The notes beneath the pieces were generated by a model. It saw only the letters and a program-made list of their open reading frames with translations, had not been told where the DNA came from and did not search any database. A program made the translations under genes and the position numbers. Of a stretch of 34,273 nt of DNA, positions 4,080 to 19,202 are shown piece after piece. Position 1 is the first letter of the stretch. Each line of letters begins with the position of its first letter. Location: positions 1 through 34,273 of the forward strand of contig JAGXKI010000024.1 of NCBI GenBank assembly GCA_018335295.1, written 5' to 3'. The stretch comes from a bacterium. GTDB taxonomy: Bacteria > Acidobacteriota > Aminicenantia > Aminicenantales > Aminicenantaceae.

Positions 4080-5447
4080 ATGGGAAAGTTAACACAAGAT
4101 CAACGAGGAAGCTGGGGCTCCAAACTCGCTTTCATCTATGCCGCTTCGGGCTCAGCCATCGGGTTGGGGAGTATCTGGCGCTTTCCCTTGATGGTGGGCA
4201 AAAACGGGGGAGCTGTATTCGTTTTGGCCTATATCCTGGCTGTCATTTTTATAGGATTCACGGTGATGCTGGCTGAATTCACCCTCGGCCGGCATACCCG
4301 TAAAAATCCAGTGGGAGCTTACAAAGCCGTAAGACCCCATAGTCATTGGAAATTAGCGGGTTATCTGGGAGTCATAGGAGCTACCTGCATCCTTTCCTAC
4401 TACGGAGTTGTGGCGGGATGGGCTTTTGGGTATTTTTATAAGACCCTCGGGGGAGTATTCAAGGGAAACATCACCTGGCAGGTCTCGGACCAAATCTTTA
4501 AAAATTTTGCTTCCAACACTCCTGAAATTCTGTTCTGCCTTTTTGTGATCATCGCCATCACCACCTTTGTGATCTCCAAAGGAGTGGAAGGAGGGATCGA
4601 ACGGTGGTCCAAAATCCTCATGCCGGTTTTGTTCACCTTGATCATCCTGCTGGCTGTCCGGGCGGTTACCCTTCCTGGAGCAGATACAGGACTGTCTTTT
4701 TATCTTAAGCCGGACTTCTCTAAACTCACTCCCAAGGTTCTGTTCTTTGCCGTGGGACAAGCTTTTTTCTCTCTCAGTGTGGGAGTGGGGACCATGATCA
4801 CCTATGCCAGCTATCTATCCAAAAAGGATAACCTGGTCTCTTCAGCCGGCTGGGTATGTTTTTCCACCACTCTGGTGGCTCTTCTCACCGGAATCATCAT
4901 CTTCCCCACCCTGTTTGCCACTCCCGGAATAAACCCTGGTGACTTTGAGATCAGCTTGGGATTGATGTTCCAGGTCTTCCCCATCATCATCTCTAAACTT
5001 CCGGGGGGATTCATATTCGGGATGTTCTTTTTCTTTCTCATCTTGGTGGCTGCTTTAACCTCCACTATTTCCATGCTGGAGGTTCCAGTGGCTTATTTTG
5101 TCGACGAAAGAGGATGGTCCCGAAAGAAAGCCACCTTCCTGGTGGGACTTTTCTGTTTTGGCCTGGGCATTCCTTCCGGATTATCAGTGGGAGGAGTTAA
5201 GCTTTTCACCAAGTTGAATTTTATGACCAACATGGATATCATCTTCGGCAACATCGTCCTGGCCCTGGGAGGGCTCCTCATCAGTTTGTTTTTGGCCTAT
5301 GTGTGGAAAGTCAAAAACGCTCTGAAAGAAATTTCTTTCGGGAACCGCCGATTCAAACTGAAACCGCTGTGGGTATTCGACATAAAATTCCTGGCACCAG
5401 TGGCCATCCTCATCATCCTCATCTTTATAAGGACTCTCACCGGATAA
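4080..5447 (+). CDS. Sodium-coupled NSS (SNF) family transporter, paralogue A
   Basis: A 455-residue neurotransmitter:sodium symporter-family protein of the LeuT fold. Bacterial members import amino acids or related amines with Na+; the substrate cannot be told here. TM1 holds the unwound family signature SGSAIGLGSIWRFPL (about residues 24-38), followed by GKNGGAVF. About eleven hydrophobic helices are visible, the usual number for short bacterial members. The start follows AAGGAGAT. The next gene at 5855 is a close paralogue of nearly the same length, preceded by the same leader, so gene and promoter were duplicated together. The two coding sequences share a 40-base identical tract (4588-4627) in otherwise diverged DNA. 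No accessory subunit gene is adjacent. Confidence 0.92.
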   Translation: MGKLTQDQRGSWGSKLAFIYAASGSAIGLGSIWRFPLMVGKNGGAVFVLAYILAVIFIGFTVMLAEFTLGRHTRKNPVGAYKAVRPHSHWKLAGYLGVIGATCILSYYGVVAGWAFGYFYKTLGGVFKGNITWQVSDQIFKNFASNTPEILFCLFVIIAITTFVISKGVEGGIERWSKILMPVLFTLIILLAVRAVTLPGADTGLSFYLKPDFSKLTPKVLFFAVGQAFFSLSVGVGTMITYASYLSKKDNLVSSAGWVCFSTTLVALLTGIIIFPTLFATPGINPGDFEISLGLMFQVFPIIISKLPGGFIFGMFFFFLILVAALTSTISMLEVPVAYFVDERGWSRKKATFLVGLFCFGLGIPSGLSVGGVKLFTKLNFMTNMDIIFGNIVLALGGLLISLFLAYVWKVKNALKEISFGNRRFKLKPLWVFDIKFLAPVAILIILIFIRTLTG

Positions 5448-5854: not shown

Positions 5855-7225
5855 ATGGGAGAGAGCATCACCGATCCAAGAGGAACTTGGGGCTCTAAAC
5901 TCGCATTCATATTTGCCGCCTCAGGTTCAGCCATCGGCTTGGGAAGCATGTGGCGGTTTCCTTTAATGGTGGGAAAAAACGGAGGGGCCGTATTTGTTTT
6001 CACATACATCATCTCTGTTTTTTTTATCGGCTTCACCATTATGCTGGCCGAGCTCACGTTGGGGCGCCGCACACAAAAAAATCCAGTGGGGGTTTTCCAA
6101 ACCATCAAACCCGGGTCTTCCTGGAAATATGCGGGGTATGTGGCTCTCGTCACCTGTGTGTGCATCCTTTCCTATTACGGTGTGATTGCCGGATGGGCTT
6201 TTGGTTACTTCTATAAAACCATCGGGGGAATGTTCAGAGGAAATATAACCTGGGATATCTCAGATACTATTTTCAAGAACTTTGCCTCCAATCCTTTGGA
6301 AATCGTATTCTGCATTTTCATCATCATGGCCATCACCACCTTCGTTATTTCCAAAGGAGTGCAAGGAGGGATCGAACGGTGGTCCAAAATCCTCATGCCG
6401 GTGCTTTTTGCTCTGATCCTCTTTCTGGCCATCCGAGCCATCACTTTAGGAGGAGCCCAAACCGGTATTTCTTACTATCTCCTCCCTGACCTTTCCAAGA
6501 TGGATCCCAATGTATTTTTCTTCGGGGTAGGTCAGGCTTTTTATTCGTTAAGTCTGGGAATGGGGATCATGATGACCTACGGGAGTTATATCGGCAAAAG
6601 GGATAATCTGGTCACTTCGGCTGGTTGGGTCTGTTTTTCCACCACGTTAGTGGCTTTTTTGACCGGAATCATCATCTTCCCTGCCTTATTCGCTACCCCG
6701 GGCATCAATCCCGGCGAATTTGAAGTCAGCACAGGGCTTATGTTTCAAGTCTTTCCCATTGTCATTTCTAAAATACCCGGAGGTTATCTTTTCGGCATCC
6801 TCTTCTTCTTTCTCCTTCTGGTGGCCGCCTTAACCTCCACTATTTCTCTCTTGGAAGTTCCTGTGGCCTACTTTATCGATGAGAAAAGATGGCCCCGGAA
6901 AAAGGCCGCTCTTCTGGTGGGAATAGTGACTTTCGCTCTAGCTATTCCTTCCGGTCTTTCGGTGGGAGGAGTTAAATTTCTTACAAACTGGAAATTCTTA
7001 ATCAGTATGGATCTGGTATTTGGCAACATCATGTTGGCTGTGGGAGGACTTATTGTTTGTGTGTTTTTGGTGTATTTATGGCGGACCCAAAACGCTCTCC
7101 AGGAAATTTCTTTAGGAAGCCGTGGGTTCAAACTCAAATCTTTGTGGGTTTTCAATATTAAATTTTTGGCTCCCGTGGTGATCATCATTATTCTTTTCTT
7201 TAAAATTTTCAATGCGATCTCTTGA
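5855..7225 (+). CDS. Sodium-coupled NSS (SNF) family transporter, paralogue B
   Basis: A 456-residue LeuT-fold symporter, colinear with the gene at 4080 and very similar throughout. The TM1 signature SGSAIGLGSMWRFPL and the following GKNGGAVF are kept, as is KGV-GGIERWSKILMPV in the middle of the protein. Differences concentrate in loops and at the C-terminus, so the copies may differ in substrate. The start is set by AAGGAGAT in the duplicated leader. Thirty-one bases separate its stop from the flippase-like gene, and no terminator was seen between them, so read-through into the envelope cluster is possible. Substrate is unknown; amino acids are the usual cargo of the family. Confidence 0.92.
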   Translation: MGESITDPRGTWGSKLAFIFAASGSAIGLGSMWRFPLMVGKNGGAVFVFTYIISVFFIGFTIMLAELTLGRRTQKNPVGVFQTIKPGSSWKYAGYVALVTCVCILSYYGVIAGWAFGYFYKTIGGMFRGNITWDISDTIFKNFASNPLEIVFCIFIIMAITTFVISKGVQGGIERWSKILMPVLFALILFLAIRAITLGGAQTGISYYLLPDLSKMDPNVFFFGVGQAFYSLSLGMGIMMTYGSYIGKRDNLVTSAGWVCFSTTLVAFLTGIIIFPALFATPGINPGEFEVSTGLMFQVFPIVISKIPGGYLFGILFFFLLLVAALTSTISLLEVPVAYFIDEKRWPRKKAALLVGIVTFALAIPSGLSVGGVKFLTNWKFLISMDLVFGNIMLAVGGLIVCVFLVYLWRTQNALQEISLGSRGFKLKSLWVFNIKFLAPVVIIIILFFKIFNAIS

Positions 7226-7256: not shown

Positions 7257-8201
7257 ATGAAAAAGAAGAAAAAAACACTGACCTTCATCGTTAAGTTCAT
7301 TTTCAGTGCTTCCATCCTGGCTTTCATCCTCACTTATAAAACCTCCCTTCAAGGTATCCTGGAGGTTCTTGGAGGAGTCAACCTTTTCTGGCTGATAATC
7401 TCCTTTTCTCTCCATTCTCTGGGTCTTTTGATCAGTGCCGTCCGTTGGAAAATCCTTATCCAGGCTCATGGGGAAAAAGCTCCTCTTGGTTTTCTCGTCC
7501 AATCCTATCTTGTAGGAAACTTTTTCAACAATTTTCTCCCCACCCGCATCGGAGGAGATGTGGTGCGCATGTGGGACGGCTCTCGCTACTCCCAAACCTT
7601 AGTCCGGTCTTCAGCGATCATCTTGGTGGAACGGTGGACAGGGATGTCTGTTCTTCTTTTGTTCGCAGTCCTGGCCTCTCTCATCCGGATGGATATGGCC
7701 CAGAAAATCCCGATCATCTGGGTCTCTTTGCTGCTGGGGTCAGCCGGGATTCTTTTGTCCTTGACCATCCTGTTTCCTTTCACCGGAAAGTGGCTGCAGC
7801 TGATTCCAGAAAAGGGGTTTCTGGCCCGGGTGAAGGAAAAAATTTTCAATTTTCGAGAAACCATTTTTGTCTATAAAAACAAACCGATCTTTTTCTCAAA
7901 AGCCCTTTTTTGGGCGTTCCTCCTTCAAGTGAATGTCATCCTGCATTATTTCCTGATCGGAAAGGCTCTGGGACTCTCCATTCACTTCCTGGACTATTTT
8001 ATTTTCATTCCCATTGTTTATCTCATCCTGATTATCCCGGTTACCATCAATGGGTTAGGACTGAGAGAGGGCTCCTACATAGAAATATTCAGTTTTTATG
8101 GAATCCTTCCTCAAACAGCTTTTTCTTTCTCTATCATTGATGTGGCTTTTGGCTTGATCATCGGGATTGCCGGAGGTATTATTTACACCCTGCGAAAATG
8201 A
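7257..8201 (+). CDS. Flippase-like integral membrane protein (LPG-synthase TM/UPF0104)
   Basis: A 314-residue multi-pass inner-membrane protein of the family covering YbhN and the flippase half of MprF (lysylphosphatidylglycerol synthase TM region). Family landmarks visible are RWKILI near residue 63, the polar NFFNNFLPTRIGGDVVRMWD stretch (about 89-108) and the late GLGLREGSY motif. About eight hydrophobic segments can be counted. Members are thought to move lipids or lipid-linked precursors across the inner membrane, but few have been tested. No ribosome binding site is evident before the ATG at 7257. The stop overlaps the start of the EnvC-like gene by four bases, so it is translationally coupled to the envelope cluster downstream. 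Confidence 0.82.
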   Translation: MKKKKKTLTFIVKFIFSASILAFILTYKTSLQGILEVLGGVNLFWLIISFSLHSLGLLISAVRWKILIQAHGEKAPLGFLVQSYLVGNFFNNFLPTRIGGDVVRMWDGSRYSQTLVRSSAIILVERWTGMSVLLLFAVLASLIRMDMAQKIPIIWVSLLLGSAGILLSLTILFPFTGKWLQLIPEKGFLARVKEKIFNFRETIFVYKNKPIFFSKALFWAFLLQVNVILHYFLIGKALGLSIHFLDYFIFIPIVYLILIIPVTINGLGLREGSYIEIFSFYGILPQTAFSFSIIDVAFGLIIGIAGGIIYTLRK

Positions 8202-9373
8202 AAAAGCTAAGGGGTAAAAAGCATCTGTTTATTTTTATTTTATCAGGAGTCCTGATAACTCTTCTCCCTCCACACTCTTTTCTCCAACAGGATGCCTCTG
8301 ATTATGAAAAACGGTTGAAACGAATCTCCCAGCAGATTGAACAGGTGAAAGCCAAGATAAAAAAACAAGAGGAGAAAAAATCATCGGTCCTCTCACGGCT
8401 GGCTACAGTGAGTTTCCAAAAAAAATTAATCCAGAATCAAATTTCCCTTCAGCAGGTCAAACTGAAAAAGGCCAACGAAGAACTCCAAACTGTTCAGCAA
8501 AGAATCGATCATCTCAATTCTCAAATGGAAAAAGAGAAGAATTCTATAAAAAAAATTCTGGTCTGCCTTTATAAATTTGGCAAACCCAGTTTTTTTGACT
8601 ACATGCTCCGTGCCGAAGAGGTTGAATCCCTGTTTGCCGAAAGCAAATACCTTTCTCTTTTAGCCCAGTATCAAGAAAACATCATTTCGGATTACATAGA
8701 AATCTTAGAAAATCTAAAGGAAACCAAAGAAAAACAAAAAACTCTCAAAAAAGAGATCCATCAACTCCTCTCTCAAGCAGAACAAAAACGAAAGGCTCTT
8801 CGGGCTCAGGAAAGAAAACACAGAGCTCTGGTTCGGAAAATTGAACAAGACAAACGGGTTCATCAAAAAACCCTCCAAGAACTCAAGAGGAGGGCTGAAC
8901 AACTTCAAATTTTGATCGAAAAACTGATCAATGAAAATGTTTCTCTTCCTTTCAACATCATCCCTCTTTATGAAAAAAAAGGAAAACTCCTCTGGCCCCT
9001 GGAGGGTCAAGTGGTATCTAAGTTTGGGCTTCACCGACATCCCCGATTCAGCACCATCACGAGGAATAAAGGGATTGAAATCTCTCCTTCCCAGGACAAA
9101 CCCATCATTAAAGCGGTTCACCCTGGAATGGTTGTTTATGAAGATTATTTTCATGGGTACGGAAATTTGATCATCGTGGACCACGGATTGAGTTATTATT
9201 CCTTATACGGACATTGCTCGGATTTTCTTGTGAATAAAGGAGATGTGGTGAATAAAGGAGAACCCATCGCTGTGGTGGGAGAACTCAGTTCTTTAAAAGG
9301 AACCACCCTTTATTTTGAACTCCGGTTCAAGTCTAAACCCATGGATCCCTTGAAATGGCTAAAAAAAAGATGA
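8198..9373 (+). CDS. EnvC-like coiled-coil protein with degenerate LytM (M23) domain
   Basis: A 391-residue exported protein: signal/anchor segment (about 8-26), long coiled coil (about 33-245), then an M23/LytM fold (about 264-390). In active M23 enzymes zinc is held by an HxxxD pair and the second His of HxH. Here the first site reads N290-K-G-I-E294 and the last reads TLYFEL with Y372 in place of His; only the middle H339 (LYGHCS) survives. E. coli EnvC has the same kind of losses and works as an activator of peptidoglycan amidases at the septum, so a regulatory and not hydrolytic role is inferred. It overlaps the flippase gene by four bases and is followed by a CtpA-like and a YibQ-like gene, the order known from many proteobacteria. 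No amidase or ftsEX gene is in the window. Confidence 0.85.
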   Translation: MKKLRGKKHLFIFILSGVLITLLPPHSFLQQDASDYEKRLKRISQQIEQVKAKIKKQEEKKSSVLSRLATVSFQKKLIQNQISLQQVKLKKANEELQTVQQRIDHLNSQMEKEKNSIKKILVCLYKFGKPSFFDYMLRAEEVESLFAESKYLSLLAQYQENIISDYIEILENLKETKEKQKTLKKEIHQLLSQAEQKRKALRAQERKHRALVRKIEQDKRVHQKTLQELKRRAEQLQILIEKLINENVSLPFNIIPLYEKKGKLLWPLEGQVVSKFGLHRHPRFSTITRNKGIEISPSQDKPIIKAVHPGMVVYEDYFHGYGNLIIVDHGLSYYSLYGHCSDFLVNKGDVVNKGEPIAVVGELSSLKGTTLYFELRFKSKPMDPLKWLKKR

Positions 9374-9396: not shown

Positions 9397-10545
9397 ATGA
9401 GATTAAAAGGACTAAAGCTGTTTTTGCCGATTGGGGTGTGTGTCCTTCTCCTTTTTTCAATCCTCCAAACTGACTTTCTCTCCGGAATTTCTCTGGCTTC
9501 GGCTCCTCAAAAAAGTTTCCATATGGTGGAAGCAGTGATTCAATTGATCCGAAACGACTATGTGGAAAAACCCAATCCTTCTCAAACCATGGCCGGAGCT
9601 TTCAGGGGAATAGCCAATTCTTTGGATCCGCTTTCCTGCTATTTAACTCCCCAAAATGTCGCCCAATACCAAAAAGAAACTCCTCTCCAGGAAACAGGGT
9701 TAATTCTTTATAAAACCCCCGACACTTTTCCTCAAGTGATCGGGATTAAAGAAAACTCACCAGCCCAAAAAAAGGACATTCAAATTGGGGATTTTATCAG
9801 CTCCATCGATAATCAATCCACACTTCACAAAGGCATGATCGAAGTCAATCTCCTTATGAAGGAGAAAATAAAGGAAGAATCCGAAGCCCCCGTGAACTTG
9901 AAAATTCTGCGGGAAGGAAAATCTCATAAAATCAAGGTGAAACGAAAACTCCTTAACTCCAGACCTTTTTCCTATGTTTCCTCCGAAGGGACGAGCGGGA
10001 TTCTCAAAATACACAACCTCTATCCTTCTTGTGTTCAGAAAATAAGGGATCAAGTGTTAAGTGAAATAAAGGGAAAGAGAAAACCCCTGATTCTGGACCT
10101 GCGAAATTGTTATCAAGGTCATTTCACAGAAGCTCAAAAACTCATCAATCTGTTTATCCGGTCAGACAATATAGGGTATCTATCCAAAAAGAATGGAGAA
10201 AAAGAAAGCCTTTCCTGTCCTCGAACCCCTGAATTAAAAAAAATACCGTTGAGGGTCTGGATCAACCAGGCTACTTTCGGGCCGGCTGAAGCGGCAGCCG
10301 GAGTGTTAAAAGATAAAAAAAGAGCCAAACTGGTGGGGTTTCCTTCGTTAGGTTTAGCCGCCAGATTAAGGCTTTATTCTCTGGAAGATGGAAGCGGTGT
10401 TATCCTTGTTTCCCGTCTTTTTCACCTTCCTTCGGGAAAAATCATATGGGAAGAGGGTATCCAGCCGGGTATAAAAATCAAAGGAAAAGATCAAAGCACC
10501 GAAGCTTTCCTCCAAAAAACTCTCTCCACTTCGCCTGAAACTTAA
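9397..10545 (+). CDS. CtpA-like S41 family protein lacking the catalytic Ser/Lys dyad
   Basis: A 382-residue exported member of the C-terminal processing peptidase family. It has a signal anchor (about 8-25), an N-terminal helical part with the family sequence NSLDPLSCYLTP (74-85), a PDZ domain (about 95-185), and an S41 core (about 195-365). In active enzymes the core carries a TASASE-like motif and, 25 residues later, the Lys of TFGKG. Here the aligned motif is TFGPAE (293-298), with Gly at the serine position, and the Lys position is Leu (L320 in SLGLA). Both catalytic residues are therefore gone while the fold and PDZ look intact. A binding or scaffold role beside the EnvC-like protein is inferred. 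The start has no strong ribosome site. It lies 23 bases after the EnvC-like gene and 3 before the YibQ-like gene. Confidence 0.83.
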   Translation: MRLKGLKLFLPIGVCVLLLFSILQTDFLSGISLASAPQKSFHMVEAVIQLIRNDYVEKPNPSQTMAGAFRGIANSLDPLSCYLTPQNVAQYQKETPLQETGLILYKTPDTFPQVIGIKENSPAQKKDIQIGDFISSIDNQSTLHKGMIEVNLLMKEKIKEESEAPVNLKILREGKSHKIKVKRKLLNSRPFSYVSSEGTSGILKIHNLYPSCVQKIRDQVLSEIKGKRKPLILDLRNCYQGHFTEAQKLINLFIRSDNIGYLSKKNGEKESLSCPRTPELKKIPLRVWINQATFGPAEAAAGVLKDKKRAKLVGFPSLGLAARLRLYSLEDGSGVILVSRLFHLPSGKIIWEEGIQPGIKIKGKDQSTEAFLQKTLSTSPET

Positions 10546-10548
10546 CTG

Positions 10549-11712
10549 ATGCAGATAGCCATCCCTCCTTGGGGGAAACGAACAAAGCTTCATAAATCTT
10601 TTTCCCCAATCTACCTTATATTGATATCCCTAGCTGTTTTCTCCATTTTGAGTTTGGATTATATTCAATGGAGAAAAAAAAGTGTGGGTTCGAAGCCCCC
10701 TCAAACAGAACAAGGGAAAAGCACATCCACGGATGAAAATGCTCTGCATACAACCCTTCTGCAGAAATTGTCCCAATCCAAAATTTCCTCTGAATCCATC
10801 CATACGTTCAAAGATAAACAAGGAATTTATCATCTGCTGATTGAAATTTCCCTTAAAAAATTCAACCACATTCAATCTTTCCTGGAAAAGGAACTCCACA
10901 AAAAAGGAGCCTCTATTCTTCACCAGGAAAAACAAATAACCAAAGACAAAACTTTTTATCTTTGGCAGATAAAGGGAAAGAAGGGGGAAAGACTGGCCCT
11001 GCTTTTTTCCTGTAAGAAAGAAAAGCCCATTCCTCCAGCAAAGCCTCAGAATAAAGTTTCCTTAATCATGGATGACATGGGTTACAGCCTCAAGGCCATC
11101 TATGATATCTGCGCTCTCAAGGTTCCCATCACGGTCTCCATCCTCCCTTACAGTCCGGTAGCCCAGGAAACCGCTCATATCGCCCACCAAAATAATCTGG
11201 AGGTCATCCTTCACCTTCCTCTTGAGGCTATCAATGCCCGAGAAAATGACAATCATATGAAGGGTATCATCCACTCCCAGATGAAGCCTCAGGAAATCAT
11301 CCGAACTGTGGACTCATGTCTCCAGCAACTTCCCTATATCAAAGGAGTTAATAATCATATGGGTTCCAAAATAACTCCGAATCCCTCCTTCATGCGCACA
11401 ATACTGGAAAGGCTTAAAGGAAAAAACCTTTATTTTATCGACAGCATGACCACCGGGGACTCAGTGGCTTACAGAATGGCCCAATCCATGGACATCTCAT
11501 CTGCTTACCGTCAGGTGTTTCTGGACACTCAAAAAGATAAGGATTCCATAAAAGAAAAACTCCTTGAGCTTTTCCGGTTGGCCCAAAAACGAGGAAAGGC
11601 TGTGGGGATCTGTCATCCCTTTGAGGAAACCTTGAGGGTCCTTAAAGAAAACCTCCCTTTGACAAAAAGATACGGGATTAAACCTGTTTTTGCCTCCCAG
11701 ATTGTGGAATAA
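10549..11712 (+). CDS. Divergent polysaccharide deacetylase (YibQ family)
   Basis: A 387-residue protein with one N-terminal membrane segment (about 20-36), a basic low-complexity linker, and a C-terminal NodB-like barrel from about residue 168. Family landmarks are SLIMDDMGY, ITVSILPYSP, LHLPLEA, VNNHMGS, YFIDSMTTG and GICHPFEETL. The YibQ branch is a distant relative of polysaccharide deacetylases and is regularly encoded beside EnvC and Ctp proteins. Its substrate has not been established, though a cell-wall polymer is assumed from the company it keeps. It is the last gene of the cluster, begins three bases after the preceding stop, and is followed within six bases by a strong hairpin terminator. 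Confidence 0.87.
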   Translation: MQIAIPPWGKRTKLHKSFSPIYLILISLAVFSILSLDYIQWRKKSVGSKPPQTEQGKSTSTDENALHTTLLQKLSQSKISSESIHTFKDKQGIYHLLIEISLKKFNHIQSFLEKELHKKGASILHQEKQITKDKTFYLWQIKGKKGERLALLFSCKKEKPIPPAKPQNKVSLIMDDMGYSLKAIYDICALKVPITVSILPYSPVAQETAHIAHQNNLEVILHLPLEAINARENDNHMKGIIHSQMKPQEIIRTVDSCLQQLPYIKGVNNHMGSKITPNPSFMRTILERLKGKNLYFIDSMTTGDSVAYRMAQSMDISSAYRQVFLDTQKDKDSIKEKLLELFRLAQKRGKAVGICHPFEETLRVLKENLPLTKRYGIKPVFASQIVE

Positions 11713-11766: not shown

Positions 11767-11802
11767 CTAGGGTTATCCTACCAACTAGGGTTATCCTACC
11801 AA
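11767..11802. repeat. Perfect 18-bp tandem duplication
   Basis: Two identical 18-base units (11767-11784 and 11785-11802), each containing GGGTTATCCTACCAA. The stop codon of the minus-strand membrane protein lies in the second unit. The duplication adds nothing to the protein, since either copy alone would supply the same ending. Confidence 0.85.
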
Positions 11803-12705
11803 AGTCAAACGGTCTATCGTCCAAAACACTCCTAAATCAAACAGAATCAAAAGGACAAACAGAATGGATTGGAGAAAAACTTTCCCTCGAAGCTTTTCCC
11901 ATCCATAATTCATCATTTGGACTATGACAAAAATCTCCAGGGCAAACGGAAGAAATCCAAAATACCCAAACACGGGCATCTGGAAAATCCTTCCAAAATT
12001 CAAATAAGGAATGGAATACTCCCAATGAGACCCGGACCAGAAATTCCAGAATTCCCAGAAAAATCCCGCTGCCAAGCCGGCCATGAGCCAGCTCCAGAAG
12101 CGGTCCCAGTTTCTTTGGGCTATATCCTTTATGAATGTTGGATTCCCCAACCAGTAGTTTACAGGCTCCAAAAGAAACACAAAACAAAGCCACACCAAAG
12201 GAAAAAAGAGGAGAGGCCATATCAAAGGCAGGAAAATACAGACCACTCCCAAAAACAAACTTCCCCAGAGTAAGAGTGGAGTGATATTCAACCTGAAAAG
12301 ACTCATCCTTTTTCCTTTGAAGAGGTTCCCGAAAAACCGGGAAAGCTCCATCAAAGCAGGAATAACTGTGGCAAAAGCGACAAAATAACCGAACCATCTT
12401 AAAGGGGTATTCAAAGGAAGGTTATGATAGCTCCAGTTATTGATTCGGAGATTAAAAAGTTCGAAAAGGAGCCAAACAGTGACTGAAAGGAATGCATAAA
12501 AGAAAAAACCTTTTCCATAATCATAAATCAACGAAGAACGGCTCATCCTGAAATTCACACTGTCCATGATCAAAATAAAAGACCACCAGGCTAAACTGTA
12601 ATACCAAGTCTTGATAAAGGTATACTGAAAGATAATAAGAACAGAGGCTCCCAGGAGGATGATTAGACCGAGGAAAAGGTTCAACCGTAAAAATTTTTCT
12701 TTCAT
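11791..12705 (-). CDS. Multi-pass membrane protein with internal duplication
   Basis: A 304-residue protein with about eight to nine hydrophobic helices, rich in Trp and Phe. I do not recognise a characterised family. The two halves repeat each other: W40..D48SVN51..E82LFN85..W91SY93..G106Y..P116ALME120 lines up with W172..E180PVN183..E218FWN221..W228EY230..G247Y..P253FALE257, at an offset of 132-141 residues. Conserved acidic, Asn and Trp residues in both halves suggest a pseudosymmetric pore or active site. The general look recalls membrane cyclases and transporters built of two copies, but that is only an analogy. The -10 box ends eight bases before the ATG, so the mRNA is probably leaderless. 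Transcription ends at the shared terminator downstream. Confidence 0.8.
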   Translation of the reverse strand: MKEKFLRLNLFLGLIILLGASVLIIFQYTFIKTWYYSLAWWSFILIMDSVNFRMSRSSLIYDYGKGFFFYAFLSVTVWLLFELFNLRINNWSYHNLPLNTPLRWFGYFVAFATVIPALMELSRFFGNLFKGKRMSLFRLNITPLLLWGSLFLGVVCIFLPLIWPLLFFPLVWLCFVFLLEPVNYWLGNPTFIKDIAQRNWDRFWSWLMAGLAAGFFWEFWNFWSGSHWEYSIPYLNFGRIFQMPVFGYFGFLPFALEIFVIVQMMNYGWEKLRGKVFLQSILFVLLILFDLGVFWTIDRLTLVG

Positions 12706-13079: not shown

Positions 13080-13108
13080 TTGCATAATCCTTTTTTATCC
13101 ATTATATT
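13080..13108 (+). promoter_or_regulatory. Promoter of the lipoprotein gene
   Basis: TTGCAT (13080-13085), a 17-base spacer and TATATT (13103-13108). The short leader carries GAGGAGG at 13118-13124 before the ATG at 13131. Confidence 0.55.
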
Positions 13109-13130
13109 TGTTTTTATGAGGAGGAACTTA

Positions 13131-13688
13131 ATGAAAAAAACACTTGTGGCTATAATCATAGTGATGATCCCCCTATTCATTACCTTTTTCCAGATTGGCT
13201 GCTCCCAAGGTCCCTCTCCCGAAGAACTGAAAAACGCCATAAAACTCACCGATATACAAACAAAGTGGGTCTCCAAGGAGTATCAACCCTGGCCTCCCAA
13301 ATTGGTGTTGGTTCCCGCTATTTCCTTCAAGGTTAAAAATGTTTCTGATTTCCCTCTGACCTACGTCAATTTCAATGCCGTGTTCAGACTGAAAGGAGAA
13401 CGTGAAAACCTGGGAGACAACTTTATGGCGGCCATTCGGGGAGAACCTGTCAAGCCTGGAGAAAAAAGCGAAAAAATTCTCCTGAAAAGCAACTTTGGAG
13501 TGGAAGGAAATTCCGTGGAGCACTTTCAAAACAACCCCCAGTGGAAAACGGCTATAGGGGAAGTCTTCGCTCAATCCCAAGGATCCCGTTACGTAAAGCT
13601 GGGCGAATGGGAAATTTCCAGGAAAATCGCTTTCGAGCCTCCGGAACCGGTAGGAGAAAGAAAGAAAAAGGAAGAAAAAAAGAAATAG
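13131..13688 (+). CDS. Putative lipoprotein of unknown function, 185 aa
   Basis: A small exported protein. Residues 1-23 form a signal sequence (KK, then a hydrophobic run) ending at C24 in FQIGCSQG. Gly at -1 suits lipoprotein processing, though Gln at -3 is unusual. The mature part has alternating beta segments, including ISFKVKNVSDFPLTYVNFN (about 68-86) and a KPGEKSEKILLKS stretch, which resembles small immunoglobulin-like beta-sandwich lipoproteins. No family name can be given. It ends in a charged GERKKKEEKKK tail. The ATG at 13131 was chosen over an upstream in-frame start at 13080 because GAGGAGG precedes it and the upstream start coincides with the -35 box. It converges on the SurA-like gene, 18 bases away. 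Confidence 0.72.
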   Translation: MKKTLVAIIIVMIPLFITFFQIGCSQGPSPEELKNAIKLTDIQTKWVSKEYQPWPPKLVLVPAISFKVKNVSDFPLTYVNFNAVFRLKGERENLGDNFMAAIRGEPVKPGEKSEKILLKSNFGVEGNSVEHFQNNPQWKTAIGEVFAQSQGSRYVKLGEWEISRKIAFEPPEPVGERKKKEEKKK

Positions 13689-13706: not shown

Positions 13707-14687
13707 TTAAGAAACATATTCCCAAGGTTTGGAAATTTTAATCTTGACATAGTTTTTTTCTCTTAATTCCTGAAGAAATTGTTGCATTTTCTTCTCTCTT
13801 TTCTGATTGAATAATTTCTCTTCAATCTTTTTTCTCACTTCATCAAAAGGTTTCACTCTTTTCTCTTTTTTCCCTTTCAGTTTATACAGGTACCATCCAT
13901 TCTGGATTTTTATCCAGGGAGTACGTTCTCCTACTTCTAATTTTTCCACAGCCTTCTCCAGGTTTTCAGCTAATTCACCCTTCTTAAAAGTGCCTAAAGA
14001 GCCTTGGGACTTTTTTTCAGGACCTTCTCCATACTCAGAGGCCACCTGGGCAAACTTTTCTCCCGAGTCTAGTTTTTCCAGGATGTCTTTCTTCTTCTTT
14101 TCCACTTCTTCCTTACTTTTATCCTGGGAGGAGACATAGATGGCACTCAACTCATATTCCTCTGGTTCTACAAATTCTTCCTTGTGCTGGTTGTAGTACT
14201 CCACCAGGTCAGAATCATCGACAGAAATATCTCTCACCACCTCTGAAAAAATGACCGCTTGCTTCATCTGATTCCTTTCAATCTGCTCTTTCCAATCCTC
14301 AAAGTTAATCCCTTGCTGTCGCATGAGCTGCTTCAGTTTTTCATCCGACTCGATGGCGTTTTCCTTCTTGATGTTTTCGATGGTCCTACGGACTTGTTCG
14401 CTCACATCCATATCTCTTTTTTTCGCTTCTTGAAAAAGCAAAAGATCGGTGATCATGCTCTCCAACAAATTCTTTTTCAAATTATCATACCGCTGGGTAA
14501 ATTCTTCTCCTTCATACTGCGACCGAAGGTTTTGATACTGCTTTTCAAATTCCTTTCTGTATTCAGACAAAGTGATAACGTCATCATTCACTACAGCCAC
14601 GATAGCCTCAATGACTTCTCCTCCACTGAGAAACACAGCTGTGCACAAAATAAAGATGGTTAGGAGACAAATTTTTGGTTTGTTCAT
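13707..14687 (-). CDS. SurA-like periplasmic chaperone/peptidyl-prolyl isomerase
   Basis: A 326-residue exported protein. It has a signal peptide (about 1-23), then the SurA N-terminal helical domain beginning IVAVVNDDVITLSEY, the family's opening motif. One parvulin (PpiC) domain follows at about 178-275, with ASEYGEGPEKKSQGSLGTFKKGEL, and a C-terminal helix. E. coli SurA has two parvulin domains; one is common in other phyla. The expected role is folding of outer-membrane proteins in the periplasm. The start overlaps the stop of the upstream chaperone gene by four bases, so the two are translationally coupled and probably share the mfd transcript. Confidence 0.9.
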   Translation of the reverse strand: MNKPKICLLTIFILCTAVFLSGGEVIEAIVAVVNDDVITLSEYRKEFEKQYQNLRSQYEGEEFTQRYDNLKKNLLESMITDLLLFQEAKKRDMDVSEQVRRTIENIKKENAIESDEKLKQLMRQQGINFEDWKEQIERNQMKQAVIFSEVVRDISVDDSDLVEYYNQHKEEFVEPEEYELSAIYVSSQDKSKEEVEKKKKDILEKLDSGEKFAQVASEYGEGPEKKSQGSLGTFKKGELAENLEKAVEKLEVGERTPWIKIQNGWYLYKLKGKKEKRVKPFDEVRKKIEEKLFNQKREKKMQQFLQELREKNYVKIKISKPWEYVS

Positions 14688-15604
14688 GAGTGATTCCTTT
14701 GATAAGGGAAAGTTAAATGTTCTGGATAATAATCCCAGTTCATCTCTTTTTTGAGTTTTTGGACGTGTCGAGAAACAATTTGTTTGATTTTTCGCTTCAT
14801 AATGGTGAGTTCTATAGAAGATCGAACTTCATCCACAGCCATAAGCTGGGGTGGATATTTTTTATCCAGCCGAAAAATATGAAAGCCGTAAATGGATTTG
14901 ACCACCGGGCTTATTTCTTTTTCATCCAAAGAAAATATTACTTTTTCCATGGTGAACGGAAGTTGTCCCATTTCAAACATTCCCATCCTCCCCCCTCTGG
15001 AAGCTTCAGCTCCCTTGGAAATTTCTTGAGCCAGCCTCCTGAATTCTTCCTGAGTTGAGTCTTTCAATTGTTCTCTAATCTCTATAGCTTTATCCTCGGT
15101 CTTGACCAAAATCTGACTCACCTCCACCTGTTCGGGACGGAGAAATTTTCGTTTATTCTGTTCATAGTATTCTTCAATCTCCTCTTTTTTGACCTGCAAA
15201 TCTTTAACCAGTTTAGAAGTATACTTCTTTGTCAGCAAGTCCTCATAGAGGAGCTGCTTTTCCTCCAAAGAAAGCTCCTTATCCTTCTGCGGAAAATCAT
15301 CCCGTAATCTCACCAGGTGATCCTTCTTCTCCTTAGATGATAAAGATATCTCATTTGACCGAGCGGCTTCCAAAAGTATCTTCTCCTCGATAAAATTATT
15401 AAAGATTCGGCTTAAAGAAAGAGAGGATAGATTTTGATAATCTTCTCCGACATTGAGTTGGAGGTGCTTTTCAAAATCTGCATTCCGGTATTCAGAGTCC
15501 TGGACCTTAAGAATAACAGCGTTACTCTTCTGGGAATCGGTCTGAGCTGCTTCAGAGACACCTTTCCGTTCATCCTGAGTCTGACAGTGCCCCAGGTGTA
15601 ACAA
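14684..15604 (-). CDS. Parvulin-type isomerase with displaced signal peptide
   Basis: A 306-residue open frame for a PpiC/PrsA-type chaperone: helical N-domain (about 25-150), parvulin domain (about 155-250, with EVSQILVK, GGRMGMFEMGQLP and YGFHIFRL) and a C-terminal helix. The only in-frame start is a poor TTG at 15604, and the protein then opens in the middle of a signal sequence (LLHLGHCQTQ). The missing first part lies at 15605-15653 in the other frame, split off by a run of ten A. With nine A the protein would begin MLKKKYFNVGWCLLLALLHL and continue into this frame, a normal signal peptide with a possible lipidated Cys. See the entry for 15605-15653. It overlaps the next chaperone gene by four bases. 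Confidence 0.82.
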   Translation of the reverse strand: MLHLGHCQTQDERKGVSEAAQTDSQKSNAVILKVQDSEYRNADFEKHLQLNVGEDYQNLSSLSLSRIFNNFIEEKILLEAARSNEISLSSKEKKDHLVRLRDDFPQKDKELSLEEKQLLYEDLLTKKYTSKLVKDLQVKKEEIEEYYEQNKRKFLRPEQVEVSQILVKTEDKAIEIREQLKDSTQEEFRRLAQEISKGAEASRGGRMGMFEMGQLPFTMEKVIFSLDEKEISPVVKSIYGFHIFRLDKKYPPQLMAVDEVRSSIELTIMKRKIKQIVSRHVQKLKKEMNWDYYPEHLTFPYQRNHS

Positions 15605-15656: not shown

Positions 15657-18600
15657 TCATCTTTTTTTATTCCAAATCATTATATTACACTTGGATAACT
15701 CCTTCAAGATAGAGATGGTTTCATCCATGATCTGTGTGGGATCCTCTCTCTGGAGATAAAGGCTCAAAACTCCCTGCGGAGTTATCGAACCCGAACGCTT
15801 TTTTATAAGACGGGTCATGGTTTGGACATCGGCGGAAGAAGAGGGGAAAAATTTAAATATCACTCTTTTTCCCACCCGGTCAATAGCCTTGATTTTCAAT
15901 TTTTGAGCCAAAAACTTGACCACTCCATAGCGGAGGAGCCTTTCCACACTGGGGGGAAGGGGTCCATATCTGTCTTCGATTTCCTTTCGGATCCCCTCGA
16001 TCTCTGATAATTCCTCAATAGAGGAGACTCTTTTGTACAGACTGAGTCTGAGATTGATTTGAGGCAAGTATTTTTCGGGAATTCTTATATCCACCTTTAA
16101 ATTGATCTCACTTTTAACCTTTTCAGTTTTTTCGCCTTTGAATTCTTTTATGGTCTGGTCCAGAAGATGCATGTAATAATCATATCCCACCGCTTCGATG
16201 TATCCGTGTTGTTGGGAGCCGAAAAAATTTCCCGCTCCTCTTATCTCTAAGTCCTTGGCCGCTAAACGAAACCCGGCTCCCAGTTCAGTAAATTCCTGTA
16301 AAGCTCTGAGCCTTTCCTTGGCCGTCCCGGTTAACTCAGTAAAAGGAGGAACCAAAAGATAAGCCACCGCTTGACGGGAAGACCGTCCCACTCGACCTCG
16401 AAGTTGGTAAAGCTGAGCCAGTCCAAAACGATCCGCTCGGTTGACAATGAGAGTGTTGACCAACGGAATGTCAATGCCGTTTTCAATGATGGTGGTCGAC
16501 ACCAGGACATTATATTTTTGGTCTATAAAGTCAATCATCCTTTTCTCTAACTCTTTACTGGACATCTGACCGTGGATGGTGATCACCCGGGACTCCGGAA
16601 CCCACCTTTGAATCATCTGAGCAATGGAATCGATATCTTCAATCCGGTTGTGAATAAAATAGACCTGGCCGCCGCGGAAAAGTTCGGTCTGTATAGCCGA
16701 AGAGATGAGTTTACGGCTAAAAGGAGTGACTACGGTGTGAATGGCTAATCTATCTTTAGGGGGCGTTTCGATCAAACTGATATCTCTCAATCCGCTCAAA
16801 GAGAAATTCAAAGTTCGGGGGATAGGGGTGGCCGACATGGTTAAAACATCGATCCGGGTTTTCATCTTTTTGATTTTTTCTTTGTGGTTCACTCCAAACC
16901 TCTGCTCTTCGTCAATAATAAGAAGCCCGAGGTCCCGAAACTGCACATCCCTGGAGAGCAACCGGTGAGTGCCGATAATGATATCCACCAAGCCCTTCTT
17001 CAAATCCTTGATTATCTTTTTCTGCTGGGCCTTGGATTGAAGGCGAGTGAGAGACTCAACTCTCAAAGGAAAAAGAACTATTCTATTCCGGAAAGTCTGA
17101 AGATGTTGGGAAGCCAACACAGTAGTGGGACAGAGCACCGCCACCTGCTTTCCATCCATCACCGCTTTAAAGGCCGCTCTCATGGCCACCTCGGTCTTTC
17201 CGTACCCTACATCCCCGCATAACAGCCGATCCATGGGGAAATCGGATTCCATATCCACCAACACTTCACGAATAGCCTTTTCCTGATCTTCGGTTTCTTC
17301 GTAGGGAAAAGTCTTTTCAAACTCTGACTGCCACTCCCCAGGAGGGCTGTATTTGTATCCTTTGGTCGATTTCCTTTCCGCATACAGCCGCAGCAACTCC
17401 TTGGTCATATTTTCAATGGCTTTTTTGGTTTTGGCTTTGGTCTTTTCCCACTGGGGACTTCCCAATTTGTGAAGTTGAGGAGAGTGAGATTTTGAATGGG
17501 AATATTTCTGGACCAGGTTAAGATCCTCCACAGGAACAAAAAGTTTGTCCCCATCTTTATACATGATTTCAATAAATTCCCCGGCGCTCTTATCCACTTT
17601 CATCTTAATCAACCCCTTAAAAATCCCGATGCCGTAATCGGCGTGGACTACATAATCCCCGGCCTTTAAATCCTGAAAATGAGTGCGAAAGGGTTTGACC
17701 CGGCGCCGGCTGACCAGAACTTTTTCTTCGGTGAACACGTCCTCTTGAGAGAAAAAAATGATTTTTTTATCGGGGAAACTGAAGCCATGATGGAGATTCC
17801 CCAACAGCAGCTTCACCGCCCCATCCCTGGAAACAGAAAACGGATTGGAAGCCTCCTCATACCGTAACTGGTGTTGAGAGAGGAGAGTGGCTAATTTCTG
17901 CCGCACTCCTGGACTCTTGAAGAAAATAAAACATCTTTCTCTTTCTTCCTGCAATCTTTCCAGATATTGGAGAAAGAAAGGAATCTTATTGTTAAACTGA
18001 GGAGTCGATTGAAAGGAAAAAGAAAAAGATTTCTTCTGAAGGGAAGGACTCAGGGGCCTCAGGAAGACAGCCTTTTTCTGGATCCTCTCCCATAGAGTCG
18101 GAGGATACATCTTCTCAGGAGGCAAGACAAAAATATTCTGGGATTTCAATTCTTCCTGTTGCTCTCGATAATCATGAAGGGTTTGATCCCAATCCTTTTT
18201 CACTTCCTCGTATTCATCCATAACCAAAAGGAAATCTTTCAAATAATGATGGAAGGGGACAAAATAATTTTCATTCATTAAAGAAAGGAAAGAAAAAGAA
18301 GGGAAGACGTCTTCCTCTTCCAAACACCGGATTTTTTTATTTAAATCTCCCCGACAATCAGGGGGGCAATCGTGAAGAGCCTTCTCCTTCCATTCCTTTA
18401 GAAATTGGAAGAGAGGGGGGTGTTCCCGAAGGGATGGAATGAGGACATGATCCAATCTTTCTTGGGACTTTTGGGTAGAGGCATCGAATTCTCTAAGAGA
18501 TACAATCTGGTTTCCACTCAGTTCAATCCGGAAGGGATGGGAAGACCAGGGAGAAAACACATCCACGATCCCTCCTCTCCATGCATACTCACCTGAAGAG

Positions 18601-19112
18601 TTGATCAAATCCTCTTTGGTGTAACCAAAATGTTTCAGCTTTTTCAAGAGTTCATCCCTCTCCACAGAAGTGCCTACTTCCAAGGTAAGGAACAAGTCTT
18701 GGATATACTGAGGGTGAGGGAAAGGTTTCAAAAGACCTAAGAGATTGGTGACCACCAACCGGGGATCGTTGTGAGTGAGTTCATAGAAAAAACTCATCCT
18801 GGAGGACACGGCTTCCAAGGAAGGAAAGATTTCCTGGTAAGGATTTTCAGAGAGAGGAGGAAGCGTATAGGTCTTCAAACTCGAAGAAAACAGAGACAAA
18901 AAAAACCGGCACTGCTCTTCAAAAGGAGATAAAGAATAAGTCGAGGGGCGTATAAAAATGATTTTCTTCTGGGTTTCCTGGAGCAGAGTGGAAAGAAAAT
19001 AGGGCTTGGCGGCTTCAGTAAGCCCCGTTACCTGGAGCCCTTCCGGTCTTTGATTCAGGGACTGAACGAAGGACTTGAACTCCGCGGTATGTTTTAAAAA
19101 ATCAACATTCAT
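15657..19112 (-). CDS. mfd: Transcription-repair coupling factor Mfd
   Basis: A cytoplasmic ATP-driven translocase that removes RNA polymerase stalled at DNA lesions and recruits UvrA. The 1151-residue length is standard. In order: UvrB-like module (about 1-340), RNA-polymerase interacting domain (GDYVVHADYGIGIF, about 485-498), helicase domain 1 with Walker A GDVGYGKT (633-640) and DEEQ (734-737), helicase domain 2 with RGRVGRS, and the C-terminal TRCF domain. The open frame reaches 19169, but the ATG at 19112 (MNVDFLKH) is chosen: an extended -10 promoter lies just six bases before it and would exclude the upstream codons. The two chaperone genes follow directly, so mfd probably heads a three-gene unit. 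Confidence 0.96.
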   Translation of the reverse strand: MNVDFLKHTAEFKSFVQSLNQRPEGLQVTGLTEAAKPYFLSTLLQETQKKIIFIRPSTYSLSPFEEQCRFFLSLFSSSLKTYTLPPLSENPYQEIFPSLEAVSSRMSFFYELTHNDPRLVVTNLLGLLKPFPHPQYIQDLFLTLEVGTSVERDELLKKLKHFGYTKEDLINSSGEYAWRGGIVDVFSPWSSHPFRIELSGNQIVSLREFDASTQKSQERLDHVLIPSLREHPPLFQFLKEWKEKALHDCPPDCRGDLNKKIRCLEEEDVFPSFSFLSLMNENYFVPFHHYLKDFLLVMDEYEEVKKDWDQTLHDYREQQEELKSQNIFVLPPEKMYPPTLWERIQKKAVFLRPLSPSLQKKSFSFSFQSTPQFNNKIPFFLQYLERLQEERERCFIFFKSPGVRQKLATLLSQHQLRYEEASNPFSVSRDGAVKLLLGNLHHGFSFPDKKIIFFSQEDVFTEEKVLVSRRRVKPFRTHFQDLKAGDYVVHADYGIGIFKGLIKMKVDKSAGEFIEIMYKDGDKLFVPVEDLNLVQKYSHSKSHSPQLHKLGSPQWEKTKAKTKKAIENMTKELLRLYAERKSTKGYKYSPPGEWQSEFEKTFPYEETEDQEKAIREVLVDMESDFPMDRLLCGDVGYGKTEVAMRAAFKAVMDGKQVAVLCPTTVLASQHLQTFRNRIVLFPLRVESLTRLQSKAQQKKIIKDLKKGLVDIIIGTHRLLSRDVQFRDLGLLIIDEEQRFGVNHKEKIKKMKTRIDVLTMSATPIPRTLNFSLSGLRDISLIETPPKDRLAIHTVVTPFSRKLISSAIQTELFRGGQVYFIHNRIEDIDSIAQMIQRWVPESRVITIHGQMSSKELEKRMIDFIDQKYNVLVSTTIIENGIDIPLVNTLIVNRADRFGLAQLYQLRGRVGRSSRQAVAYLLVPPFTELTGTAKERLRALQEFTELGAGFRLAAKDLEIRGAGNFFGSQQHGYIEAVGYDYYMHLLDQTIKEFKGEKTEKVKSEINLKVDIRIPEKYLPQINLRLSLYKRVSSIEELSEIEGIRKEIEDRYGPLPPSVERLLRYGVVKFLAQKLKIKAIDRVGKRVIFKFFPSSSADVQTMTRLIKKRSGSITPQGVLSLYLQREDPTQIMDETISILKELSKCNIMIWNKKR

Positions 19113-19118
19113 AGAATA

Positions 19119-19127
19119 ATTATAACA
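19119..19127 (-). promoter_or_regulatory. Extended -10 promoter of mfd (leaderless)
   Basis: On the minus strand TGT-TATAAT, a perfect -10 with a TGn extension, then six bases and the ATG. The -35 region is weak. The predicted start site is the A of the ATG. Confidence 0.55.
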
Positions 19128-19202
19128 TGCCTTTCCCAGAAGAAATAACCATCGGAAAGGCCGAGTCAATCGGAATTTTATGGATGATGAGGAGATTCCG
19201 TG

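Follow-up and report, generated by a model that had tools for sequence, protein, structure and literature searches.

The gene cluster around psiCtp

The stretch of DNA analysed here (the window, 34,273 nucleotides) belongs to the MAG of a Candidatus Aminicenantes bacterium (Acidobacteriota) and carries a compact cluster of co-directional genes on the + strand. The first of them (7257–8201, +) encodes an LPG_synthase_TM or flippase-like membrane protein (PF03706, 2.3e-36), and its stop codon overlaps the start of an envC-like gene (8198–9373, +). This is followed, after a gap of 23 nt, by the gene for a 382-aa product (9397–10545, +) that we call psiCtp, a CtpA-type S41 pseudoprotease, and then, after 3 nt, by a yibQ-like gene (10549–11712, +). 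Such is the layout of an envC-ctpA-yibQ operon, and the position of psiCtp between EnvC-like and YibQ-like genes, pointed out in the earlier note, is conserved throughout the order wherever the contig reaches. The LPG_TM gene is usually found upstream in the order as well, and it also precedes envC in the class families f8–f11. Directly upstream of the cluster are two tandem transporters of the sodium:neurotransmitter-symporter family (SNF; 4080–5447 and 5855–7225, +). On its other side lie two ORFs without a Pfam match, one membrane-protein-like (11791–12705, −; 304 aa) and one lipoprotein-like (13080–13688, +; 202 aa), and beyond these two adjacent SurA/PpiC-type PPIases (13707–15604, −) downstream of mfd (15657–19169, −).

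The EnvC-like protein comprises a signal or anchor sequence, a coiled coil and a degenerate LytM domain (PF01551, 2.9e-23) in which the zinc ligands have been replaced (H to N, D to E, HxH to TxY). Among the orthologues these columns are N in 52/57, E in 53/57 and Y in 53/57. The match to the EnvC model NF008644 has an E-value of 1.9e-31 and a score of 109, below the cutoff of 270, and so falls short of equivalog status; the coiled coil and the LytM domain devoid of zinc ligands are nonetheless those of an amidase activator. A LytM domain without zinc ligands is the normal state of amidase activators such as EnvC. The YibQ/SddA-like protein, a divergent polysaccharide deacetylase (PF04748, 1.5e-68), retains its D, D, H, H metal ligands, as do all 55 of the 55 orthologues compared (residues according to PMC12440217), and is thus predicted to be active. 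In E. coli its homologue SddA removes acetyl groups from denuded septal glycan strands and also modulates amidases (PMC12440217). Since the degeneracy of EnvC is normal and the metal residues of YibQ are intact, the Ctp is the only enzyme of the cluster that is unexpectedly dead. The earlier suggestion of a scaffold complex built from pseudoenzymes, with two dead enzymes paired in one operon, is consequently unsupported in that form. Elsewhere the window genome encodes two Amidase_3 proteins, as well as FtsX with an FtsE-like ORF immediately upstream of it.

Fold, catalytic positions and conservation of psiCtp

The product of the third gene has the domain order N-terminal anchor – NDR-like region – PDZ – S41 core. 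Pfam detects Peptidase_S41 (PF03572, 1.7e-17), PDZ_2 (PF13180, 1.4e-6) and a CtpB_N-like region (1.4e-4), and the TIGR00225 prc model matches as well (4.3e-38). A hydrophobic N-terminal helix (about residues 6–25; 9412–9471, +), either a signal peptide or an anchor, has no lipobox; hydropathy over residues 5–23 is 2.37 and the structural model has a helix at 9–25. The PDZ domain occupies residues 114–182 (9736–9942, +) and the S41 core residues 218–360 (10048–10476, +; 64 bits against a 24-bit cutoff). An AlphaFold2 model, computed with the window and related-locus sequences, reached a pLDDT of 81 and a pTM of 0.79, with low confidence at residues 1–9, 19–39 and 58–76, and its best PDB matches in Foldseek are CtpA, CtpB and the D1 protease (D1P). 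The model thus supports an intact PDZ domain and core fold, as had been supposed from the sequence, and with its S41 core, PDZ domain and NDR-like N-terminus psiCtp belongs to the S41A CTP fold family. Among proteins of solved structure, CtpA of P. aeruginosa, CtpA of H. pylori and CtpB of B. subtilis come nearest. The model lies nearer to inactive-state CtpA/CtpB chains (8sxe_B and 4c2e, TMq 0.65–0.66) than to active ones (8sxe_A and 4c2c, 0.51–0.56), the inactive state of 8sxe chain B being inferred from the paper and not given in the Foldseek table.

Aligned with active Ctps, the catalytic Ser position of psiCtp is G295 (10279–10281, +) and the catalytic Lys position is L320 (10354–10356, +), exactly 25 residues apart; both assignments and the spacing agree with the earlier note. 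The auxiliary residues have gone too: L79, in the DPLSCYL segment (residues 77–83; 9625–9645, +), replaces the His that is H84 in P. aeruginosa CtpA (PaCtpA; PMC11021448), and L324 replaces the Gln. In that enzyme S302A or K327A alone abolishes proteolysis; H84A reduces it, and the effect of Q331A is small (PMC11021448).

This loss is not peculiar to the window. Of 60 genomes from its family and order, counting the window genome itself, 58 have an orthologue, with 33–54% identity to the window protein. A search among 67 order-level orthologues for an intact dyad found Ser or Lys in none (0/67), which confirms the dead Ser/Lys dyad of the earlier note. Residue 295 is G in 64/67 and D in 3/67; residue 320 is L in 65/67 and F in 1/67, the one other sequence being truncated; residue 79 is never His. 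Gln at position 324 is kept in 46/67. Around the former catalytic positions, new near-invariant motifs have arisen, TxGPAE (TFGPAE in the window) and TPGL (SLGL in the window). Two tryptophans, W288 (67/67) and W351 (63/67), and two cysteines, C238 (62/67; 10108–10110, +), which replaces the Asn of the LDLRNNPGG loop, and C274 (57/67), are likewise conserved. A C238–C274 disulfide is unsupported: both Cys occur in 52/67, exactly one in 15/67 and neither in 0/67, so that there is no co-loss. At the carboxylate-loop position of the PDZ domain, psiCtp has ETGL (residues 99–102; 9691–9702, +) where active Ctps have GLGI, and residue 99 is acidic in 60/67 orthologues in place of the first Gly. This hints at a changed ligand preference, and because of this replacement it is uncertain whether the domain binds C-termini in the classical way.

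Pairwise dN/dS of psiCtp is 0.075–0.29 (16 pairs, with large dS near saturation), and EnvC and YibQ give similar values when the same pairs are compared. The former Ser loop (97th percentile), oxyanion loop (99th) and His loop (99th) rank among the best-conserved parts of the protein; the loop that held the Lys has average conservation (61st). The resemblance of its dN/dS to that of its neighbours and the conservation of its former active-site loops indicate that psiCtp is maintained and that the old site still has some role that constrains the sequence. With its catalytic residues lost and purifying selection acting on it, psiCtp has, on sequence grounds, the marks of a maintained pseudoenzyme; an assembly error or a recent pseudogene is ruled out by the 67 orthologues and the dN/dS. 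One genome (G005) carries two full psiCtp operons (G005:C25 and G005:C8; L011 and L036), 50% and 47% identical to that of the window, but its contamination is 5% and the pair may reflect a mixed bin.

We also checked whether the window genome has another, active Ctp. It does: judged by its residues, a catalytically intact Ctp (at G000:C61), with His, Ser, Lys and Gln all kept, is encoded away from the operon and is 29% identical to psiCtp. Both types are present in most genomes of the order. Other contigs of the window genome carry, in addition, three long S41 ORFs of about 1,090 aa.

Operon Ctps in other Acidobacteriota and other phyla

EnvC, Ctp and YibQ are linked widely among Gram-negative bacteria. 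In the Acidobacteriota, a survey of the phylum anchored on YibQ, together with a class search and alignments, revealed a Ctp adjoining YibQ in about 18 additional families, in most cases with EnvC as well. All of them have lost Ser and/or Lys, by differing substitutions, except family f35 (L139, L140), where Ser, Lys and Gln are kept and the auxiliary His is Phe; these are the only operon Ctps with an intact dyad seen in Acidobacteriota. Some losses are partial, Ser being kept and Lys lost in L076 and L127, and the reverse in L131. Between EnvC and YibQ no Ctp was detected in genera g36 and g40 of family f9 (L151, L152, L153), where the protein is therefore dispensable. Dead Ctps of other Acidobacteriota families also occur outside the envC operon, beside genes for class A PBPs (L157, L158), MltG/YceG (L155) or the threonyl-tRNA synthetase thrS (L155, L159, L160).

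In other phyla, sampled through plasmid-collection records, His, Ser, Lys and Gln are all intact in the Ctps from four EnvC-Ctp-YibQ operons of alphaproteobacteria and in the Ctp of an EnvC-Ctp pair from Neisseria. In a tree built with the catalytic columns left out, these proteins cluster with the stand-alone Ctps of Acidobacteriota that are intact (SH-aLRT 99) and the psiCtps of the order form a clade of their own (SH-aLRT 99). The differing substitutions and the intact f35 proteins suggest several independent losses of catalysis, but the AU test on an earlier tree did not reject the grouping of all intact Ctps in a single clade (p 0.47), so that there may have been one ancient loss or several. 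It is conceivable, and we advance it as a tentative proposal, that the Ctp in the EnvC-Ctp-YibQ division module changed across the phylum, either once or repeatedly, from a protease to a non-catalytic binder. If this is true, the ancestral role of the operon Ctp may have been in part non-proteolytic, that of a scaffold for EnvC, amidase and deacetylase, even in lineages where it still cuts.

Possible functions of psiCtp and known systems

With its cutting residues lost and its shape kept, psiCtp is probably a binding or scaffold protein rather than a protease. The reading that we somewhat favour is that of a long-established S41A-family pseudoprotease which, through its PDZ domain and groove and without proteolysis, would scaffold or regulate septal peptidoglycan cleavage. 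After export the protein would stay at the inner membrane, where its PDZ domain and its vacated, still-conserved substrate groove would bind a putative protein partner without cutting it. It may in this way scaffold or regulate the FtsEX-EnvC-amidase step that produces denuded glycan strands and, likewise, the YibQ/SddA deacetylase that acts on them; the second, unlinked and active Ctp would presumably take care of ordinary proteolysis. Several observations support this: dN/dS and the conserved old loops point to constraint; the operon persists throughout the order and in many more Acidobacteriota families; the genome has the Amidase_3 proteins, FtsX, the FtsE-like ORF, an intact YibQ and an intact second Ctp; the dead Ctps outside the operon adjoin class A PBP, MltG or thrS genes; the model fits inactive-state chains better; and both positions whose mutation abolishes PaCtpA proteolysis are lost in 67/67 orthologues. 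The f9 genera without a detected Ctp and the acidic residue in the PDZ loop weaken it, and gene neighbourhood is circumstantial evidence.

Alternatively, psiCtp could be a regulatory pseudo-subunit that hetero-oligomerises with the active Ctp, or competes for its substrates or adaptor, as an activator or a decoy. CTPs do assemble into dimers and hexamers, one subunit of which remains inactive (PMC11021448), most genomes of the order hold both proteins, and CspC of C. difficile is a pseudoprotease that activates a related protease (PMC4619724). We nevertheless consider this unlikely: the active Ctp is encoded away from the operon and has diverged deeply, psiCtp tracks EnvC and YibQ in gene order, and its predicted N-terminal interface is of low confidence. 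Still less probable is a ligand carrier, the vacated groove binding a lipid, a glycan or another non-peptide ligand, much as the dead S41-like modules of vertebrate RBP3/IRBP carry retinoids and fatty acids (PMC11750400); here the invariant Trp288, the nearly invariant Trp351 and the hydrophobicity that Leu320 and Leu79 confer on the old site have to be set against the retention of a PDZ domain and of a peptidoglycan operon. That psiCtp has kept protease or other hydrolase activity by means of relocated catalytic residues seems very improbable. The frequent Cys238, which sits within the old oxyanion loop, and Cys274 could be considered, as could the relatives that keep Ser (L076), Lys (L131) or both (f35), but neither Cys is invariant, the highly conserved Ser, Thr, His, Lys, Asp and Glu of the clade are the same as in active Ctps or conservative swaps of them, and the 67 orthologues offer no new highly conserved nucleophile. 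Finally, an inert remnant preserved through operon polarity or translational coupling, for which the tight gene spacing and the lowering of SddA output by envC co-expression in E. coli (PMC12440217) might speak, is scarcely credible, since neighbour-like dN/dS, conserved old active-site loops and order-wide retention exclude neutral decay, and the lineages that dispensed with psiCtp have no Ctp gene there.

A scaffold or regulator of septal peptidoglycan cleavage thus stays our preferred interpretation. In the open-licence literature we found no paper on S41 pseudoproteases of the envC-ctp-yibQ operon or in Aminicenantes; the CTP fold, pseudoenzymes and the operon are already known, and the notable part is the phylum-wide extent of the dead Ctp. 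A phylum that keeps the Ctp gene while dropping its chemistry separates binding from cutting, and a dead operon Ctp amounts to a natural test of the Ctp role in septal peptidoglycan remodelling. There is also a practical caution, in that automatic "S41 family peptidase" labels in Acidobacteriota often name non-proteases.

The closest known counterpart is P. aeruginosa CtpA (PDB 8sxe–8sxh, 7rpq/7rqh), the best match both in phmmer (8.3e-32) and in Foldseek (2.5e-25), which shares the fold and the gene order. Its operon is envC-ctpA-PA5135 and CtpA is active (PMC12569750), degrading peptidoglycan endopeptidases together with LbcA; psiCtp, however, lacks all three of its residues Ser302, Lys327 and His84. 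The EnvC-S41-YibQ-RppH operons of alphaproteobacteria (Sinorhizobium pSymB, L172; Rhizobium, L175; also Shinella, L171, and Methylobacterium, L173) have the same EnvC-Ctp-YibQ order, but their catalytically complete Ctps fall with the stand-alone active ones and psiCtp is not intact. A mirror image of the window is provided by A. tumefaciens ATU2773 (YibQ family, PDB 2QV5), an envC-operon protein without catalytic residues for which a regulatory role has been suggested (PMC12440217): there the deacetylase is degenerate, whereas in the window it is the Ctp that is degenerate and the deacetylase intact. The modules of vertebrate RBP3/IRBP have, like psiCtp, an S41/CTP-like fold from which the protease residues have been lost (PMC11750400), but they carry retinoids and fatty acids in the eye and have no peptidoglycan operon. 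C. difficile CspC is comparable as a bacterial pseudoprotease that controls cell-wall hydrolysis (PMC4619724), although it belongs to the subtilisin family, acts in spore germination and has a fold unrelated to that of psiCtp.
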